In this document: positions 9,245-21,837 of the stretch, piece by piece
How the letters are laid out: each line of letters starts with the position of its first letter
How positions within the stretch are numbered: position 1 is the stretch's first letter
DNA from: Opitutaceae bacterium
Lineage (GTDB): Bacteria; Verrucomicrobiota; Verrucomicrobiia; Opitutales; Opitutaceae
NCBI GenBank assembly: GCA_028688225.1
Contig: JAQTYQ010000011.1
Coordinates: 1 to 64,000, forward strand
DNA length: 64,000 nucleotides
Direction: 5' to 3'
Program-made: the position numbers and the translations under genes
The notes under the pieces: model-generated
Database searches by the model: none
What the model saw: the letters and a program-made list of their open reading frames with translations, nothing else
Told to the model about the DNA's origin: nothing

Positions 9245-11563
9245 ATGAACAATTTCGAACAGACCAGACTAAATCCCGATGACCCGCGCCTGACGGCCTA
9301 CGCCCTGGGCGAATTGGAGGACGATGAGCGCATCCGGATCGAGGCGGCGGTCGCCGCCGATCCGGCGTTGCAGGACGCGGTGATCGAAATCCGCATCACG
9401 GCCGGCCGACTGAGTGCCGCACTTGAGGCTGAGCCGCTGCCTCAATCCGTGCCACTGGCGCATCACGAAGCCTACCACACCGTCCGCCCGGCCCGGGTCT
9501 TTCGTTTTCCCTACTGGGGCATGGCCGCGCTGGCGGCCGCGGCGTGCCTGGCCCTGGTTTTTGCCCTGCGCGAGCTGCCCCAAGCGCAAAAGAACGCCCG
9601 GCAGCAGGCTGCGGCGCTGGCCGGGCAGACGGCCGCGCAATCGTCCGAGGCGGAGAAAGGGCCCGCCGTCGCGATGCAGCCTCCCAACCACGTCGAGATT
9701 CAATTCCCGAAGGTGGCGGAGAATGCTCCGCTGTTGCCGGTGGAGACGACGGACCAGTGGGGCGTGGTGGTTCCCAATCCGCCTCAGGCTGCGGCGGTGG
9801 CTGCTTACGATGCCGCCGGAGCCACGAGCAGCGCCGGCAGCATGCCGACAGCCATCCGCCAGGGTCAGGACTTCGACGTGGCGATGGACAAAAGCCGCGC
9901 CCACTTTGAGGGTGGCGCCGCCGGCGAAACGGCAGACAAGGAAGTGAGATTGGCGCCATTTGTCGTGGATGCGCCCGCGGATATGAATTACCACGCTACC
10001 AACACCCTGGCCGGGACGCGCAGCAAAACCGATCTGAAAGACATGTTGCCCGCACCTGAACCCGTGCCGGTGCCCCCCCCGTCGGGGAGCGTGGTGACGA
10101 CCGGCGGCGGCCAGCCGTTCAACACCGAGGCCTACGACTACGTCGCCGACAACGGCTTCCTCGCCGCCGCGCAGCACCCGCTTTCGATCTTCTCCGTCGA
10201 CGTCGACACCGCCAGCTATAGCAACGTGCGGCGCTTCCTGACCGGCGGCCGGCGCCCGCCGCGGGACGCCGTGCGCATCGAGGAGCTGGTCAACTATTTC
10301 ACCTACGGTTACGCCGCGCCGAAACCGACAGACCAGGATCCGTTTGCCGCTTCGCTGGAAGTGGCTGCCGCGCCGTGGGCGTCGACCCACCGGCTGGTGC
10401 GCATCGGGCTGAAGGGTCGTGAGATTCCCATCGCTGACCGCCCGGCCGCCAACCTGGTGTTCCTGATCGACGTCTCGGGGTCGATGGACGAGCCGAACAA
10501 GCTCCCGCTCGTGCAGGAGTCGTTGCGGATGCTGGTCGAAAAACTGAAGCCGGGGGATCGCGTCGCCATCGTCACCTATGCCGGTGAATCGGGCCTCGCC
10601 TTGCCCTCCACGCCCGTCAGCCACCGGCAGGAAATCTTCGATGCGCTCGACCGGCTCGATGCTGGCGGTTCGACCAACGGCGGCATGGGTATCCAGCTCG
10701 CCTACGACGTGGCCAAGGCCAATTTCATCCCGAGCGGCGTCAACCGCGTGGTCCTCGCCACCGACGGCGATTTCAACGTGGGGGTGACGAGCCGGGGCGA
10801 CCTCGTGCGCCTGATCGAGGAAAAGGCAAAAAGCGGCGTGTTTCTCACCGCCCTGGGTGTCGGCATGGGCAACTACAAGGACGCCACGCTCGAGCAGCTC
10901 GCCGGCAAGGGGCATGGCGCCTACGCCTATCTCGACTCGGTGCGCGAGGCCCGCAAGGTGCTGGCGGAGCAGATCAACGGCACGCTTGCGGTGATCGCAC
11001 GGGATGTGAAGGTACAGGTCGAGTTCAACCCCGCGCAGGTGCAGGCCTACCGCCTCATCGGTTACGAGGACCGGCTGCTCAAGCCGGAGGATTTCAACAA
11101 CGACAAGATCGACGCCGGCGACGTCGGCGCCGGCCACACCGTGACCGCCCTCTACGAGGTTGTGCCTGCCGGCGTGGAGTGGAGGCCGGAATCGACGGTC
11201 GACGAACTGAAATACCAGTCGACGGCAAAACAGAAAACAGAAAACGGAAAGCGGAAAGCGGAAGAGCTTCTCACCGTGAAGATCCGCTACCAGGCGCCGG
11301 ACGGCGGTGCGAGCAAGCTGCTGGAGTTTCCGCTCACGGATCAGGGCGGAGCGTTTGCCGACGCCAGTCCGGACTTCAAGTTCGCGGCGGCGGTGGCCGG
11401 CTTCGGCCTGGTGCTGCGCGACTCGCCGCACAAGGGCACGACGACGCTCGACCAGGTGCTACACTGGGCCGAACAAGGCACGGCTTCCGACACCGGCGGC
11501 TACCGGGCCGAGTTCATCTCGCTGGTCAAGCGCGCCGAGGAGATTTTACCATCACAGGGATAG
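9245..11563 (+). CDS. vWA domain protein (YfbK/DUF3520-like) with N-terminal anti-sigma-like region
   Basis: N-terminal LTAYALGELEDDERIRIEAAVAAD; one TM; LVFLIDVSGSMDEPNKLPLVQ MIDAS; directly downstream of the ECF sigma gene. Confidence 0.9.
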   Translation: MNNFEQTRLNPDDPRLTAYALGELEDDERIRIEAAVAADPALQDAVIEIRITAGRLSAALEAEPLPQSVPLAHHEAYHTVRPARVFRFPYWGMAALAAAACLALVFALRELPQAQKNARQQAAALAGQTAAQSSEAEKGPAVAMQPPNHVEIQFPKVAENAPLLPVETTDQWGVVVPNPPQAAAVAAYDAAGATSSAGSMPTAIRQGQDFDVAMDKSRAHFEGGAAGETADKEVRLAPFVVDAPADMNYHATNTLAGTRSKTDLKDMLPAPEPVPVPPPSGSVVTTGGGQPFNTEAYDYVADNGFLAAAQHPLSIFSVDVDTASYSNVRRFLTGGRRPPRDAVRIEELVNYFTYGYAAPKPTDQDPFAASLEVAAAPWASTHRLVRIGLKGREIPIADRPAANLVFLIDVSGSMDEPNKLPLVQESLRMLVEKLKPGDRVAIVTYAGESGLALPSTPVSHRQEIFDALDRLDAGGSTNGGMGIQLAYDVAKANFIPSGVNRVVLATDGDFNVGVTSRGDLVRLIEEKAKSGVFLTALGVGMGNYKDATLEQLAGKGHGAYAYLDSVREARKVLAEQINGTLAVIARDVKVQVEFNPAQVQAYRLIGYEDRLLKPEDFNNDKIDAGDVGAGHTVTALYEVVPAGVEWRPESTVDELKYQSTAKQKTENGKRKAEELLTVKIRYQAPDGGASKLLEFPLTDQGGAFADASPDFKFAAAVAGFGLVLRDSPHKGTTTLDQVLHWAEQGTASDTGGYRAEFISLVKRAEEILPSQG

Positions 11564-12861: not shown

Positions 12862-14733
12862 TTACCTTGCACCTTCGAGGACGGCTTCCTCGCGTTCACG
12901 GCGGAACTGGCTGGTGTAGAGCTCGTAGTAGTGGCCGCGGCGGCGCAGCAGCTCCTCGTGCGTGCCGGCTTCCTCGATCACTCCCCGGTTGATGACGAGG
13001 ATGCGGTCGGCGCGGCGGATGGTCGAGAGGCGGTGGGCGATGACGAAGCTGATGCGGCCGGCGAGGAGGCGTTCGATGCCGGCCTGGATCGCCTGCTCGG
13101 TCTCGGTGTCGATCGACGACGTGGCCTCGTCCATCACGAAGATCTGCGGGCGGGCGAGCAGGGCGCGGGCGAACGATACGAGCTGTTTCTGTCCGGTCGA
13201 GAGGCGGTTGCCACCCTCGCCGACCTGCGTGTCGTAGCCGTGCTCCATCTGGGAGATGAACTCGTGGGCGTTGACCAGCCGCGCCGCCTCCTCGATCTCG
13301 GCGTCGGTGGCGTCGAGCCGGCCGTAGCGGATGTTCTCGCGCACGGTGCCCTTGAAGAGATGCGGCGTCTGCAGCACGATGCCGAGCTGCGCCTGCAGCC
13401 AGTGCAGGCTGCGCTGCCGGTAGTCGGTGCCGTTGAAAAGGAGTCCGCCCTGCGTCGGCTCGTAAAAGCGGCAGACGAGGGAGACGATGGTGCTTTTGCC
13501 GCCGCCGCTGGGGCCGACGAGCGCGATCGTCTGCCCGGCACGCACGGTGAGGTTGAAGTCGCGCAGCACCGGCGAGCCTTCCTCGTAGGCGAAGGTGACG
13601 TGGCGGAACTCGATCGCGTCGATCTTTGCCGCGTAACCATCCGGGGCGAGGGGTTGGACGGCGCCCGCCACCACCGGGACCGATGCGCTGACCTCTGCCA
13701 TCCGGCGTTTGACGTCGTCCGAGTCCGTGATCTTCGGCTCGGTGGCGAGCAGGCCCATGACGCGTTCGCCGGCGGCCTGGGCCGCCTGCATCTCGGTGAG
13801 GGTGCGCGCCATCTGGTTGATGGGATTGAAGAACTGGCCGGCAAAGTTGATGAAGGCCACGAGCGTGCCAAGGGTCATGCCGCCGACGGCGGTGAAATGC
13901 CCGCCGCCCCAGAGCGCGAGGCCGGCGGCGAGGCTGCCGAGCGTCATCACGATCGGATAGTACACGGCGGACTGCCGCGCGTTCTTCACCGACGCCGCGA
14001 ACATGGCGGCGCTGAGCTGCTGGAATTCACCCAGGTTGTCGGCCTCGCGCACCAGGGTCTTGGTGGTGCGCACGCCCTGGATGGACTCGTTGTACGCCGC
14101 GGTGATCTGCGAGTTGTACTTCCGGATCTCGCGGTGACTGAGCAGCATCATCCGCTGGAAGTATTTGCTGACGAGGGCGAGCGGCGGCAGCACGGCCAGC
14201 ACGATGAGCGCGAGCCGCCAGTGCATGAGCAGGAGGCTGACGGCGATCATGAGCACGAGGCACGTGCCCCACACCAGGTCGAGGAAACCCCAGGCGATGA
14301 TGCGCGCCAGGCGGTCGCAATCGGAGGTGAGGCGGGTGATGAGCCAGCCGACGGGCCGGTGATCGTAGAACGCGAACTCGAGCTCCTGCAGCCGGTCGAA
14401 GCAGAGCCGGCGGATATCGTGGCTCAGGTGGTTCGAAATCTTGCCGGCCAGCTCGATGAACACCCAGATGCCGAGACTCAGCAGCGCGGTGAGCAGCAGG
14501 TAGAGGCCGATGCCGGGCCGGAGGTCGGCCTGGGCGCCGCGCTGCACGACTGTGTCGATCGTCCAGCGGGTGACCTGGGCGAACGACGCGTCGATGGCCG
14601 CGATGAGCATGCCGGTGAATGCGAGCGGAATGAGGAAGCGTTTCAGCCGCAGGGCGTGCTGAAAGATCTTCCACCACAGGCCGGCGTCGAGGCGCGCCTG
14701 GAATTCATCTTCGTGTAGCAATGGGGCGGACAT
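12862..14733 (-). CDS. ABC exporter, fused TM and ATPase (MsbA/BmrD-like half transporter)
   Basis: Walker A GPSGGGKST, signature LSTGQKQ, Walker B IFVMDEATSSID. Confidence 0.93.
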   Translation of the reverse strand: MSAPLLHEDEFQARLDAGLWWKIFQHALRLKRFLIPLAFTGMLIAAIDASFAQVTRWTIDTVVQRGAQADLRPGIGLYLLLTALLSLGIWVFIELAGKISNHLSHDIRRLCFDRLQELEFAFYDHRPVGWLITRLTSDCDRLARIIAWGFLDLVWGTCLVLMIAVSLLLMHWRLALIVLAVLPPLALVSKYFQRMMLLSHREIRKYNSQITAAYNESIQGVRTTKTLVREADNLGEFQQLSAAMFAASVKNARQSAVYYPIVMTLGSLAAGLALWGGGHFTAVGGMTLGTLVAFINFAGQFFNPINQMARTLTEMQAAQAAGERVMGLLATEPKITDSDDVKRRMAEVSASVPVVAGAVQPLAPDGYAAKIDAIEFRHVTFAYEEGSPVLRDFNLTVRAGQTIALVGPSGGGKSTIVSLVCRFYEPTQGGLLFNGTDYRQRSLHWLQAQLGIVLQTPHLFKGTVRENIRYGRLDATDAEIEEAARLVNAHEFISQMEHGYDTQVGEGGNRLSTGQKQLVSFARALLARPQIFVMDEATSSIDTETEQAIQAGIERLLAGRISFVIAHRLSTIRRADRILVINRGVIEEAGTHEELLRRRGHYYELYTSQFRREREEAVLEGAR

Positions 14734-14808: not shown

Positions 14809-16740
14809 TTATCCAGCGTTGAGTTCCTGGGTGAATTCGGCGGCGAGGCTGGTCTGGATCTGCCAGAGCCGCCGGTAGAAGCCGTCGAGGCGTGCCAGTT
14901 CGGAGGGCGGGCCGGTCTGGATGATGCGGCCGTGGTCGAGCACGAGAACGCGGTCGGCGTGCGCCAGGGTGGACAGGCGGTGGGCGATGACGAGGGTCGT
15001 GGCCCGGCCGCGACGGGCCTTGAGCGCGTCGATGATCAGCGTCTCGGTCTCGCTGTCCACGGCGCTGAGCGCATCGTCCAGGATGAGGATGGGCGGATGC
15101 TTGAGGATGGCGCGGGCAAGGGCCACGCGCTGCCGTTGGCCGCCGGAAAGTGTGATGCCGCGCTCGCCGATGAGCGTGTCGTAGCCCGCCTCAAAGCCCA
15201 GAATGGTGTCGTGGATGCAGGCGGCGCGGGCGGCCTCGGTCACGTCGTGGTCGGGCGCGTCGCCGCGGCCGAGCCGGATGTTGTCGCCGAGCGTCTTGGA
15301 GAAGAGGAAGGGCTCCTGCATCACGGTGCCGATCTGGCGGCGCACCCACGGGCGGGGCAGCGTCGACAATTCGAGGCCGTCGAGGCGGATCGAACCCTCC
15401 GTATAGTCGTAAAGGCGCACCAGCAGATGGATGAAGGTGGACTTGCCGGAGCCCGACGGACCGAGGATGGCGAGCGTCTCGCCCGCGGCGACGTCGAAGG
15501 AAAGGCCGTTGAGCGTGCCGCGCCCGGCGCTGCCGGCCGCCGTGGCGTGGGTGAAATGCAGGTCGCGCACGACGATCGCGCCGCAGAGGGGTGGCAACGC
15601 CGGGAATAAAGGAGGCTGGAGGCGGGAGACCGGATCGAAAGCGGCGCGGGGTTGGTCAGCTGCCGTTCCGGCCTCCGGCCTCCAGTCTCCCGCCTCCGAT
15701 CCTGACTCGCGAACCTCGTCGAGGATTTCGCGGATGCGCCGGAGGGCCACGGAGGTCTTGCCGACCTCGGTGAGGATGCGGCCCATCTGGCGCACAGGCC
15801 AGAGCATGGTGCCCAGGTAGGCGAGGAAGGCGAACAGCACGCCCACCGAGAGATCGCCGGTGGTGATCCAGTGCGCGCCCACAAGCAGGGTGAGGCCGAT
15901 CTGGCAGAGCGTCACGAAATCGGAAATCGACCAGTACCAGGCCATCAGCCGCAGCAGGCGCAGGTTGCGATCGCGATAGACGGCGTTGGGACCGGCAAAC
16001 TTGGCCCGCTCATGGTCCTGTCGCGCGAAGGCGCGCACCACGCGGATGCCGGTGAGGTTTTCCTGGATGACGGCGGTGAGCGCACCCTCGGCCTCGTCGA
16101 CGCCCTTGAAGACGTGCCTCACCCACCCGAAGTAGACGTAGCCATAGAGCACGAGCGGCCCGATGAGCGCGAACGACACGGCGGTCAGGCGCGGGCTCAG
16201 CGCCAGCATGAGCGGCAGGGCGGCTGCGGCCAGCAGCGCGGCGTTGGCGAGCTCCATCACCTGCACGGCGAGAAACTGCCGCAGGGTCTCGACGTCGCTG
16301 GTGCAGCGCTGCACGAGGTCGCCGGTGTCGATCCGGTCATGGTAGCGCGCGGGCAGGTGGTTGAGATGGTCGTACAGGTCGTCCTTGAGCCGGCGCGCGA
16401 TGCCGTCGGAGGCAATCGCGGCATGGCGGCCCTTGAGATAGGCGAAGACGCCGCCGAGCGCCGTGAGGATGACCATCGCGGCCGGGGCGAGCCAGAGGTG
16501 CGTGCGCAGGTGTTCCGGACCGCCGAGCAGCGCCAGCAGCACGCGCAGCGGCCGGCCGGGGTCGGCGGCCGCGGGCCGGCCGGCTACGGCGGAGTCGATC
16601 GTGACGGTGCCGACGAGCGGCACGAGGTAGTTGAAGCCGGTGGCCAGCAGCAGCGCCGCGATCGCCGCGGTGTAGCGCAGGCGCTGGCCGCGCATCAGCC
16701 GCCAGACAAGTTGAAACTGGGAGGAGCCGTCGGAGACCAT
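14809..16740 (-). CDS. ABC exporter, fused TM and ATPase (MsbA/BmrC-like half transporter)
   Basis: Walker A GPSGSGKST, signature LSGGQRQ, Walker B ILILDDALSAVD (D in place of catalytic E). Confidence 0.93.
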   Translation of the reverse strand: MVSDGSSQFQLVWRLMRGQRLRYTAAIAALLLATGFNYLVPLVGTVTIDSAVAGRPAAADPGRPLRVLLALLGGPEHLRTHLWLAPAAMVILTALGGVFAYLKGRHAAIASDGIARRLKDDLYDHLNHLPARYHDRIDTGDLVQRCTSDVETLRQFLAVQVMELANAALLAAAALPLMLALSPRLTAVSFALIGPLVLYGYVYFGWVRHVFKGVDEAEGALTAVIQENLTGIRVVRAFARQDHERAKFAGPNAVYRDRNLRLLRLMAWYWSISDFVTLCQIGLTLLVGAHWITTGDLSVGVLFAFLAYLGTMLWPVRQMGRILTEVGKTSVALRRIREILDEVRESGSEAGDWRPEAGTAADQPRAAFDPVSRLQPPLFPALPPLCGAIVVRDLHFTHATAAGSAGRGTLNGLSFDVAAGETLAILGPSGSGKSTFIHLLVRLYDYTEGSIRLDGLELSTLPRPWVRRQIGTVMQEPFLFSKTLGDNIRLGRGDAPDHDVTEAARAACIHDTILGFEAGYDTLIGERGITLSGGQRQRVALARAILKHPPILILDDALSAVDSETETLIIDALKARRGRATTLVIAHRLSTLAHADRVLVLDHGRIIQTGPPSELARLDGFYRRLWQIQTSLAAEFTQELNAG

Positions 16741-16774
16741 GGTGGAGAAAAGGTCGGAAGGAAGGTGGAAAATG

Positions 16775-16801
16775 AAAAAGCCCGCTCGATGAGGAGCGGG
16801 C
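16775..16801 (-). terminator. Intrinsic terminator/attenuator upstream of ABC exporter operon
   Basis: Minus strand GCCCGCTC-CTCATC-GAGCGGGC-TTTTT, 35 nt before the ABC start codon. Confidence 0.8.
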
Positions 16802-16891
16802 CCGCGCGCAAAAGTGAAAGAGTTTCTCCCGGAGGGGGCCCGCTAGAGTCGCGGAGGGCGGGCCGGTGATGAAGAGCTAGGCAGTCATCGA

Positions 16892-16951
16892 TCAGTCCGC
16901 GCAGCCGGACGAAAAGTCGGCGGCATAAATCATGAGGGGAGGGCGGGTCAT
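16892..16951 (-). CDS. Putative 19-aa leader peptide MTRPPLMIYAADFSSGCAD
   Basis: ATG with AAGGA SD about 7 nt upstream; precedes mutually exclusive hairpins and a terminator. Confidence 0.5.
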   Translation of the reverse strand: MTRPPLMIYAADFSSGCAD

Positions 16952-17075
16952 GGCACGGTTCCTTGGTTGAGGTGTGCGCCGGTTAAAGCGACCGTCGAAA
17001 ACGCAGGCAAGCGGAAAGTGGCCGGGGAAAGGGCAACTCCGAATCGTTATGACGATTGGGGTTGCACTGATTGTT

Positions 17076-17151: not shown

Positions 17152-20100
17152 TCAACCGCGCCGTCGGCGCAGCCAGCCGGCCAGCATCCCGGCTAGGCCT
17201 AATCCCAGCAAGGCGGACGTCGAGGGCTCGGGGATGGGCGTGAAATGGAGCACCAAGTCGTTGCCTTCCTGGGTCAGGAAGAACTGCCCGATGCCAACCG
17301 AGCTGCCGAAACTGGACCAATCGAGCGAGAAAAAGGCGGGGTCAAATCCGCTGATGCCGCCGGTGGCGGTGGCGATGACGAAATCGTAGTACAGGGTGTT
17401 GTTGAATTCGGGCGGCGGAATTTCGCCCCCCGCTTCGTAGTAGCCTGCCGGCATGATCTTCAGGTAAAAGGGGTCGGCTTCGGTGGACGTGATGGTCAGC
17501 GAGCCGGTGACCTTGAGCAGGTCCCAGGTGATGCCGGCGGTGCCAACGGCATCCTTGCTCTCCCACATGTAGGTGCCGCCCGAGGCGAGCGTCAGGCCGG
17601 TGCCGAAGCCGAGCACACCGACCGGATCGGACTCGAACAGGTTGCCGGGCCAGAGCAGCTGCGTCGAGCCCACGGTCACGCCTCCCGGCGGGGCGAAGGT
17701 GCCATAGCCGGCCAGCACGCCCCGGGTGAAGGTCAGGGAATTGGTGAGCGTCACGTCCGTGTAGACGCCGAGTCCGCCTTCCTCAGGTGCAAGTGCGGGG
17801 GCGACATTGACGGTGACGGGGCCGGTGCCAAGCGCCCCGTTGCTCATGGCGACGAGGGCCCCGCCGGTGATGGTCGTGCCGCCGGAGTAATTGCTGGCGC
17901 TCGGCCCGGGCAGCGAACCGAGGAGCTGCATGCCGTCCCCGGTCTTCACGAGGCTGCCGCTCCCATTGATCGCGCCGCTGTAGTAGTTGTCGTCATCCCA
18001 GCCGGTTTGATTGATCGTGAGCGTGGCCCCGGTATCCAAGTTGATGACGCTGGATGCGGCCGGCGCATCCTTGCTCTCCAATCCACCGATGGTTGCCGAG
18101 ACGGAGGGACCGAAATTGACCGTGGTGCTGTCGTAGAGCCGCAGCCGCCCGTCGGTGGTGAAGGTGTCGAGGATGTCGAGCGTGCCCTGCCAGATCTCGT
18201 GATCGTCGGCTGGACCTTCGACACCCATGAGCTCGACGGGACCGCTGAGCTGGACCGTGCCCGTCCCCTCCTTGATCAGCGCGCCCGAGCCGGAGATGGC
18301 ACCGGAGAGGGTGTAGCTGTTCAACGCTCCGCTATCGAGGAGCAGGTCATGGTAACCCGGAATATTGATGGTGTTCGCAATGGTGAGACCGGCGGTCGTG
18401 GTGGCGAGAACGACGTTGCCGTAGACGGTGAGATCACCGGTGCCGAGGGCCGTGGGGGCGCCGAGTTCGAGCCGGCCACCCTGCAGGGTGGTGCCGCCGG
18501 TGTAGGTGTTGGCGCTCGCCAAGGTGACCGTGCTTTTCCAACTGGCAAAGGCTCCCGGACTGCTGTCGGGGGAGTCATTGTTCCAGAGACCGATGGTCAC
18601 ACTGTAGGTGTTGGTGCCAATGTCGGAAGGCAGCGAGGACACCGTCAAATGTCCCTCCTTGACCGCGGCCAAGGACAGGGTCGCTGGGATAACCTCGCCC
18701 GGGGTGATTTCCAAAGTCGCGGCGGTGCTGGTGCCGAGGAAGGTGTCGCTGGGAAGATAGTAGAGATCGTCGGTCGTCAACGAAACGCTTCTCGGGGAAG
18801 CCGGATTGGGCGAATCGATGCCGTAGATGAACGTGCCGGCGCCGGAAACCAGCGAAGAAAGAGAGAGCGCGGCGAGATTCACATCATAGTCGAAACCGAG
18901 GTAGCCCTGGTTATTGATGGTGATGGAAGCAGCCGGGCGAAAGGCAGCGGAGTTGGTGAAACGCAGGACGGAATTATCGATGGTGACGTCCCCGTAATTA
19001 TTGTTGCCGGCCAGCACAAGGCTGAGGGCTTGGCCGGAGGACGACTCGACGACGATGCTGCGCGACATCGACGTGGTTGGGTTGTCGGTCAGGTCGCTTT
19101 CCACGCGCAGGAGGCCGCCGCCGCCGCCGAATTTGTAGATGTCGCCCTCAGGGGTGATCGTGGCCGAGCTGGTGAACGTGGCGGCCGTGCTGGAGCCCAG
19201 ATGCAGGCTGGAGAAACCGGTGAGATCGATCGGGTCGGTGACAATGTAGGGCGAGGCGGGAGTATTCGTGTCGAAGCCGATCGCGCCGCTGGAGCCGGTG
19301 GTAAACCTATCGATGAATCTAGTCGAAGCGCCGGCGGAGAACGTGGAAACCGTGGTGCCAACATAGGCGCCGGAATTGACGACCATGGCACCCGGCACCA
19401 GCGGGATGGCGTCGGCCGCATCGAGAATGACCCGGCCCTCATTGATGGAAGCCCCGCCGGTGATGCCGATCGCACCCTGCATCACCAGGGTGCCCGAGCC
19501 CGTCTTGGACAGGATATATCCCGCTTCGGGTGCCGATTCGCTCACGGCACCGGTGAGAACGACTGGATTCGGGCCCTCGACTGCGATCGTCGAGGACGTG
19601 GAAAGCGTGACCGGACCGGTGAAGGTAAGTTTGCCGTCGTGGGTCTGCAGATAAACGTTGCCGGTATTGAGGACGAGGGGATTGGCAAGGGAGCGATCGG
19701 CGTCGAGGCTTTCGATGGTGGAATCGGCGTTAATCGTGAGTGTGGCTCCCGTGGCACCGCCCAGCGCGTTGTCGTGGCCGAGCGCAAGAGTGCCGCCGCT
19801 CAGGATGAACTGACTGGTGCTGCCGATGGTGAGACTGTTGTCGCCGCTCAGGGCCAGCACGCCGCCGCCGGTCTTGGTGAGGTTGACACCGCTGCCTACC
19901 GTGAGGGTTCCACCCACTTCGATGCGGCCCTCATCCGAGTAGCAGCTGCTGTCGACGAACCAGGTTTGCGATGCACCCAGGGTAATGCCCAGGGAGGAGT
20001 CAAAGTATACGGTGTCGCCATTGTTCGTCAGGCCGCCCGCGCCAATCGTCAGGGTGGCTCCGCTGTCCGTGCCAAACTCGTGATAATCACGGTCAATGAT

Positions 20101-20331
20101 GAGGGAATTGATCGAAACGGGGGCGTTAAGGTTGGTGCGGTAGCGCCGCATCGAGCCGAGGGACACGTCGGAGCCGGTCGTGGGCGCCACGCCGCCCTCC
20201 CAGTTGGCGCCGTTGGTCCAGTTGTTGTCTGCGCCGCCGCCCGTCCAGACGATGCTCTGGGCAGAACCAGGGGCAACGAAGACCATACCAAACGCCGCCG
20301 CAACCAAGGCAGCCTGCCATCGCTGAAACAT
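17152..20331 (-). CDS. Autotransporter-associated beta-strand repeat protein with PEP-CTERM anchor
   Basis: Signal peptide; repeated G/T/S-rich beta segments (LTKTGGGVLALSGDNSL, LSKTGSGTLVMQGA, YTGGTTLQGGRLELG); C-term PEPSTSALLGLGLAGMLAGWLRRRRG. Confidence 0.9.
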   Translation of the reverse strand: MFQRWQAALVAAAFGMVFVAPGSAQSIVWTGGGADNNWTNGANWEGGVAPTTGSDVSLGSMRRYRTNLNAPVSINSLIIDRDYHEFGTDSGATLTIGAGGLTNNGDTVYFDSSLGITLGASQTWFVDSSCYSDEGRIEVGGTLTVGSGVNLTKTGGGVLALSGDNSLTIGSTSQFILSGGTLALGHDNALGGATGATLTINADSTIESLDADRSLANPLVLNTGNVYLQTHDGKLTFTGPVTLSTSSTIAVEGPNPVVLTGAVSESAPEAGYILSKTGSGTLVMQGAIGITGGASINEGRVILDAADAIPLVPGAMVVNSGAYVGTTVSTFSAGASTRFIDRFTTGSSGAIGFDTNTPASPYIVTDPIDLTGFSSLHLGSSTAATFTSSATITPEGDIYKFGGGGGLLRVESDLTDNPTTSMSRSIVVESSSGQALSLVLAGNNNYGDVTIDNSVLRFTNSAAFRPAASITINNQGYLGFDYDVNLAALSLSSLVSGAGTFIYGIDSPNPASPRSVSLTTDDLYYLPSDTFLGTSTAATLEITPGEVIPATLSLAAVKEGHLTVSSLPSDIGTNTYSVTIGLWNNDSPDSSPGAFASWKSTVTLASANTYTGGTTLQGGRLELGAPTALGTGDLTVYGNVVLATTTAGLTIANTINIPGYHDLLLDSGALNSYTLSGAISGSGALIKEGTGTVQLSGPVELMGVEGPADDHEIWQGTLDILDTFTTDGRLRLYDSTTVNFGPSVSATIGGLESKDAPAASSVINLDTGATLTINQTGWDDDNYYSGAINGSGSLVKTGDGMQLLGSLPGPSASNYSGGTTITGGALVAMSNGALGTGPVTVNVAPALAPEEGGLGVYTDVTLTNSLTFTRGVLAGYGTFAPPGGVTVGSTQLLWPGNLFESDPVGVLGFGTGLTLASGGTYMWESKDAVGTAGITWDLLKVTGSLTITSTEADPFYLKIMPAGYYEAGGEIPPPEFNNTLYYDFVIATATGGISGFDPAFFSLDWSSFGSSVGIGQFFLTQEGNDLVLHFTPIPEPSTSALLGLGLAGMLAGWLRRRRG

Positions 20332-20859: not shown

Positions 20860-21837
20860 ATGAAGACGAAATCCAAATTGTATCTCCACCGCACCGCCGG
20901 CAAGGTCGCGCCCCGGATCGCCCGCGGCTACGATCCGCGATTCAAGGTCACGTCCGCCTACCGCGCGGAACTGCCCGACCTGATGCATGCCGTCGACTCG
21001 ATCCAGGGCGCGAAGGTGCCCATCCAGCATGTGGGGGTGGCAAATTTCCGGCTGCCGGTCCGGGTGCGCGCGAAGCGCGGAGCCGCGTTCGCCCTCGAGG
21101 CGCGGGTGACCGGCACCGTGTCGCTCGAGGCCGAGCTCAAGGGCATCAACATGAGCCGCATCGTACGCTCGTTCTACGATCACAAGCACGGGGTCTTTAC
21201 GCTTGAGTGGCTGGGCCGCATCCTCCGTGCCTACCTGCGCCGCATCCGGAGCAAGGATGCGCGGCTGAAGGTCGCGTTCTCGTGGCCGCTCCGGCAGCGC
21301 AGCCTGCGCAGCGGCCTCGAGGGCTGGCAGTATTACCAGGTCGCCTTCGAGGGTGTCCTGACCCACACCGGCCGCTACCGGCGTTTCCTCCATTTTGATT
21401 TTGTCTACTCGTCGGCCTGCCCGTGCTCGGCGGAGCTGGCGGAGCATGCCCGGGCCGGCCGCGGCGTCTACTCGATCCCCCATTCCCAGCGCAGCAAGGC
21501 GCGCGTCAGCGTCGAGATCGCCCCCGGCCGCCGGCTCGCCGTCGAGGATCTGCACGCGCACTGCCTCCGCGCGCTCCGGACCGAGACCCAGGTGATGGTG
21601 AAGCGCGAGGACGAGCAGGCGTTCGCCGAGTTGAACGGCGCCTACATCAAATTCGTCGAGGATGCCGCGCGGCTGCTCTACCACGAACTCAACCGCGATC
21701 CGCGCATCCGGGATTTCCAGGTCGCCTGCGCGCACCTCGAATCGCTGCATTCCCACGACGCGGTCAGCGTCATCTGCAAGGGCGTGCCGGGCGGTTTCAC
21801 CGGGGACTTCATGGATTTCGGGCAGCTCGTCTGCTGA
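20860..21837 (+). CDS. folE2: GTP cyclohydrolase I type 2 (FolE2/MptA family)
   Basis: [36 protein letters not shown]; ...[13 protein letters not shown]. Confidence 0.9.

Follow-up and report, generated by a model that had tools for sequence, protein, structure and literature searches.

The window analysed here, i.e. the whole stretch of 64,000 nucleotides of Opitutaceae DNA, carries an operon of two ABC transporter genes on its minus strand. ABC1 (14809–16740; 643 aa) and ABC2 (12862–14733; 623 aa) are both complete half-transporters according to their Pfam domains (ABC_membrane and ABC_tran). As originally predicted, the two differ from each other, with a degenerate Walker B motif in ABC1 (LILDD) and a canonical one in ABC2 (VMDE). 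BmrC, BmrD, TM287 and TM288 are among their PDB matches, and no NCBIfam equivalog cut-off was reached by either protein. We assign the pair as a predicted heterodimeric ABC exporter of the BmrCD/TM287-288 type, with a putative role in drug export. Distribution of the operon is patchy, as no match was obtained in four out of five congeners.

A gene for a large PEP-CTERM protein with passenger-associated transport repeats (17152–20331) lies on this strand, 5′ of the leader described below, and the GTP cyclohydrolase gene folE2 (Pfam GCHY-1) occupies positions 20860–21837. A YfbK-type von Willebrand factor A protein is encoded near the ABC operon in several genomes (9245–11563 in the window, 2–2158 in L033, and 1–2103 in L036). 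These proteins share a similar N-terminal stretch; their genes are located 5′ of the operon in the relatives and 3′ of it in the window.

The leader of ABC1 is encoded on the minus strand, and all elements named in the original prediction are found there, base-exact. It begins with a putative promoter, comprised of a −35 element TTGCCT (17005–17010), recognized by conservation of CTTGC, and a −10 element TTTAAC (16982–16987), placed by conserved-promoter analysis after a spacer of 17 nt. The transcript is predicted to start near 16975, about 24 nt 5′ of a leader ORF of 19 codons and a TGA stop (MTRPPLMIYAADFSSGCAD, 16892–16951), whose position is conserved at 42 of 43 loci. A start downstream of 16830 had been named as evidence against attenuation; the conserved promoter instead puts the start 5′ of the ORF. 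The sequence AAGGA, proposed as the Shine-Dalgarno (SD) of this ORF, is present at 16964–16960 and may act as such in the window, but it is not a general feature of the family, since only 6 of the 43 leaders have an SD-like motif.

Six segments, numbered 0 to 5, make up the rest of the leader. Segments 0 and 1, both within the ORF, were missed by the original prediction, which otherwise described the hairpins as they are. Segment 0 (16936–16947) covers the first leader codons and has segment 1 as its partner; it is indicated by 0:1 covariation, and is weak in the window, where the duplex is interrupted and amounts to −11.2 kcal/mol. Segment 1 (16896–16908), at the ORF end, can pair with 0 or 2, as indicated by 1:2 covariation and by a GCGG:CCGC pairing in the minimum free energy (MFE) fold of the window. 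In the same fold, helix 1:2 is topped by an inner stem, GATGA...TCATC (16868–16889), located 3′ of the stop codon and also present in the nearest relative, L032. Segment 2 (GGCCCGCC, 16857–16864) can pair with 1 or 3, the latter pairing being the predicted hairpin A, in which GGCCCGC (16864–16858) pairs with GCGGGCC (16843–16837). Segment 3 (AGCGGGCCC, 16844–16836) can alternatively form the antiterminator with segment 4 (GGGCCCGCTC, 16794–16803), since it is perfectly complementary over 9 bp to GGGCCCGCT (16803–16795), as had been claimed. The terminator itself, GCCCGCTC-CTCATC-GAGCGGGC-TTTTT, spans 16801–16775; segment 5 (GAGCGGGC, 16780–16787) is its 3′ arm, indicated by 4:5 covariation, and is followed by the U-tract (16775–16779). 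Described earlier as lying directly before the ABC gene, the terminator does adjoin it, with an exact gap of 34 nt to the ATG of ABC1 at 16740.

Judged by complementarity, the six segments can adopt two mutually exclusive sets of pairings, 0:1 + 2:3 + 4:5, which includes the terminator, or 1:2 + 3:4, which includes the antiterminator. The exclusive pairings of the proposed “classic three-way layout” are therefore present, but the layout was understated, as five alternating helices extend over six segments. Taken alone, the window makes just a moderate case: folding of 220 nt gives z = −2.6, and there are 7 terminator-like sites in 9 kb, compared with 5.4 expected. Comparative evidence raises the observation far above chance and beyond what the window alone can offer.

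For this comparison, leaders were taken as the regions upstream of ABC1 orthologues in relatives. A common plan is present in most of them: a CTTGCC promoter, a short ORF, hairpins with GAGCGGGC and CCCGCTC, a U-tract, and the ABC gene. At 39 of 43 loci the CTTGC motif is found no more than 80 nt 5′ of the leader ATG, against 4.6 in shuffles. The leaders of the window, L032, L009 and L013 were poorly aligned by MAFFT, so that complementarity was used to set the segments. The same plan recurs in more divergent leaders ahead of ABC1, found in additional genera as well as another family of the order, while some ABC1 orthologues have no leader (e.g. L008, L011, L104, and L107).

A covariance model was built on the leaders of nine relatives, with neither the window nor its nearest relative among them. 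In a search of 252 genomes of the family, all 32 of its best matches were located just upstream of ABC1 orthologues. This operon specificity was obtained with a model that saw RNA only and nothing of the gene. In the 4.3-Mb genome of the window, the window leader was the best match (E 8e-4, the next one being 0.12); its score of 26.7 bits is that of a divergent family member. A scan of the phylum (388 genomes) yielded one additional leader; it precedes an ABC1 with 54% identity in a different family of the same class. In G009, G020:C3, and G095, matches scoring less than about 38 bits do not adjoin ABC1 and were taken as background. Searches of Rfam returned no family at threshold; the matches obtained, suhB/mmgR and anti-hemB, were sub-threshold and were treated as resemblance of terminator hairpins. 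Leaders of this family are conserved in Opitutaceae-type Verrucomicrobiota, and sequence comparison places that of the window among the divergent ones.

Two further features were observed in parts of the family. In one group of genera (L009, L013, L109, L111, L112, L113, L114, and L115) the loop between segments 3 and 4 is a near-invariant TTTCCCTCCC(ATCCC), while segments 1 and 2 vary; a binding site, or a role in trans of the terminated RNA, is possible. L009 and L111 also resemble the suhB/mmgR small-RNA family, below threshold. In L108, from the other family, a T-run also follows hairpin 2:3, resulting in two tandem terminators.

Placement of the leader ORF is highly regular. The frame that begins at the first ATG past the promoter reaches its first stop codon 12–55 nt before segment 3 in 42 of 43 leaders, compared with 9.7 in shuffles, and one leader per genus gives 16 of 16 against 3.8 expected. 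The ORFs in relatives have 15–26 codons. Stop codons vary among TGA, TAG and TAA from locus to locus, but their place is constant, and segments 0 and 1 sit within the ORF at ribosome-sized spacing. The exception is L032, in which an ORF of 6 codons is followed by a second one of 15, the stop of the former overlapping the start of the latter (ATGA); the two halves of this split leader are possibly coupled, or the assembly lost a base. As 37 of the 43 ORFs have no SD-like motif, their putative translation probably starts SD-independently.

Pairing between segments was assessed by a swap test, in which the pairing energy of each leader is compared with the energy after exchanging partners among leaders. 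In 16 one-per-genus leaders, z was −5.1 for 0:1, −6.6 for 1:2, and −4.2 for 4:5, and non-adjacent segments showed no covariation (z from −0.4 to +2.8). In all 43 leaders, values were −7.1 for 0:1, −10.6 for 1:2, −2.1 for 2:3, −4.0 for 3:4, and −6.7 for 4:5. Here the only signal among non-adjacent segments was a weak one for 2:5 (−2.4), as would be expected from the near-identity of segments 3 and 5. Helices 2:3 and 3:4 are present but nearly invariant, and too uniform for strong covariation, as expected when each segment must pair with two partners. A compensated change is illustrated by L092, where segment 1 has GAC in place of GGC and segment 2, correspondingly, has GTCCGC in place of GCCCGC. 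Both the leader ORF and the alternative pairings are kept at orthologous loci, with covariation; the lack of conservation that the original prediction named as counter-evidence is not seen. A relay without segment 0 was also considered and dropped, because it predicts read-through of the untranslated leader, yet 0:1 covaries.

Dependence on translation was modelled by folding transcripts that end just past segment 3, with the footprint of a ribosome masked at one codon after another; equilibrium folding of whole leaders was of little use by itself, while transcripts ending at this point were informative. With an early ribosome, helix 1:2 has 10.7 pairs and 2:3 has 3.1, and with a late ribosome the values are 0.5 and 7.4. 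Of the 43 leaders, 36 shift by more than one pair between early and late and one is reversed; shuffled ORFs show no shift on average (7.02 vs 6.99). In transcripts ending past segment 4, an early ribosome gives helix 3:4 an advantage of over one pair relative to a late ribosome in 23 of 43 leaders, the reverse being found in none (Wilcoxon p 4e-10; p 0.65 with shuffled ORFs). Within these models, the position of the ribosome determines which helices form. The three helices compete when no ribosome is present. At many loci, the equilibrium fold of transcripts that include segment 4 favours 3:4 regardless of ribosome position, so that the switch must rely on the order of folding. In the window the rule is followed weakly: helix 3:4 forms fully at early codons and is mostly lost at late ones, and 1:2 prevails only for P-site codons ~ 2–4. 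In L032 the 2:3 response is absent from the model.

Short ORFs of conserved position and putative translation overlap the regulatory hairpins, and an exclusive antiterminator and intrinsic terminator stand ahead of the first gene, a combination kept in orthologous loci and in line with the ribosome-mediated attenuation that was originally proposed. Considering these features together with the folding models, the leader is very probably a ribosome-mediated transcription attenuator of a heterodimeric, BmrCD/TM287-288-like ABC exporter. This reading is based on conservation, operon specificity, covariation, and dependence on ribosome position in the folding models, and a change of termination in cells would be its consequence. 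In the relay, segment 0 would correspond to the first codons, segment 1 to the last codons, segments 2 and 3 to the region past the stop codon, and segments 4 and 5 to the terminator arms. A ribosome reaching the end of the ORF would cover segment 1, allowing 2:3 and then the terminator 4:5 to form, and the pump would be off. A ribosome held within the first ~ 9 codons would cover segment 0 and leave segment 1 free; 1:2 and then 3:4 could form, and RNA polymerase would read into the pump genes. Without a ribosome 0:1 may form, favouring the off state, in a balance with 1:2 that would vary by locus. Most likely, the pump is switched on when ribosomes are delayed near the beginning of the frame, as under a translation-blocking antibiotic. 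The type of pump and the analogy with bmrCD suggest that the trigger may be a ribosome slowed by a translation inhibitor which the pump itself exports.

Other explanations of the leader can be weighed against this evidence, beginning with those in which the encoded peptide or particular codons matter. ErmCL and MsrDL are examples of drug-dependent arrest-peptide leaders. In a sequence-specific arrest of this kind, the drug and a nascent-chain motif would stall the ribosome at one codon, and the peptide of the main group does look conserved (M-T-R...L-V-A-x-A-G-x-x-x-x-stop), while leaders of that kind control other resistance genes, such as that of MsrD (PMC10314930). Substitutions, however, are not more conservative in the coding frame (BLOSUM mean −0.40, vs −0.29 in another frame), and codon positions 1 and 2 are more variable than position 3, revealing no clear purifying selection on the leader peptide. 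Its Ala-Gly motif is segment 1 and disappears where the RNA changes, so that the RNA explains the motif. Arrest by the peptide was dropped as the first-choice reading after this negative coding-selection test, and we consider it unlikely. Attenuation by amino-acid starvation, of the trp or his type, would agree with the relay topology, which is the same as in the his leader, but it is hardly credible for an operon that encodes an exporter, and single-codon runs are absent from every leader, as is any residue common to all at early codons.

The ORF could also be incidental, if a ligand or an RNA-binding protein selected the hairpins, as might be supposed from an RNA structure that is more conserved than the peptide and from the absence of an SD in most leaders. 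The regular placement of start and in-frame stop documented above (42 of 43 vs 9.7 expected), a stop that varies in identity and not in place, the ribosome-sized spacing of segments 0 and 1 within the ORF, and the lack of an Rfam family at threshold make such a non-translational attenuator quite improbable. It is even less probable that the hairpin is a mere terminator of the upstream gene, or the end of a free small RNA, with the ABC promoter below it. A gene on the same strand does lie upstream in the window (17152–20331), and terminated leaders would accumulate as small RNAs; in many relatives, however, the terminator is only ~ 31–55 nt from the ABC gene (34 in the window), which leaves no room for another promoter with its 5′ UTR. 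In addition, upstream genes differ by locus, some of them pointing away, while the promoter 5′ of the ORF recurs in 39 of 43.

Ribosome-mediated attenuation, the reading preferred here, has its closest structural counterpart in the his operon attenuator of Salmonella and E. coli, which likewise combines a short ORF with five alternating helices, A:B, B:C, C:D, D:E, and E:F. In Salmonella, B:C and D:E give read-through, E:F terminates, and an untranslated leader terminates via A:B; function is proven, early stalling leading to read-through and full or no translation to termination (PMC4046918). The family of the window differs in having no His codons and in belonging to another phylum and another operon; with no threshold match to the Rfam his leader family and no run of His codons, it is not placed in that family. 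In the bmrB leader of bmrCD from B. subtilis, a translation-dependent terminator, antiterminator and anti-antiterminator likewise precede a heterodimeric multidrug ABC exporter; translation of the leader is required, 50S inhibitors induce, and loss of the start codon results in more termination (PMC4191407). The ORF of bmrB is, however, ~ 162 nt long and contains the terminator within the coding region (PMC4191407), whereas the window family has ORFs of 15–26 codons, a terminator 3′ of the stop, and a longer relay. The “bmrB-like” label of the original prediction thus holds for the analogy of logic and target and not for homology, which we do not claim, and the leader is not of the bmrB type with its long ORF. 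The family is homologous to neither system, having the topology of his and the target and proposed signal of bmrB-bmrCD. The patA leader of PatAB in Streptococcus pneumoniae similarly places a terminator, an antiterminator and an anti-antiterminator ahead of an ABC exporter pair; in the available part of that source, neither a leader ORF nor a conserved five-helix relay is described (PMC4319486). Sinorhizobium meliloti peTrpL, according to the available part of its description, is a leader-peptide attenuator linked to multidrug resistance and differs in that its peptide acts in trans (PMC7298713).

How the lag of the ribosome is perceived can be proposed more tentatively. With a chance that we put slightly short of even, the relay may read only the progress of the first ribosome, as a codon-independent measure of its lag that uses neither control codons nor an arrest peptide. 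If so, the pump would be induced by every inhibitor slowing translation of the first ~ 9 codons, and a his-type six-segment relay would have been recruited to a multidrug-type exporter in Verrucomicrobiota. No earlier report of such a system in this phylum was found in the open-access literature. The pairings persist although the RNA varies, so that the fixed features (the relay and the position of the ORF) can be told apart from the free one (the peptide), and this separation makes the sensing of delay without a special codon or peptide directly testable. The leader family would represent a conserved translation-sensing attenuator ahead of a pump of the drug-resistance kind in Verrucomicrobiota.
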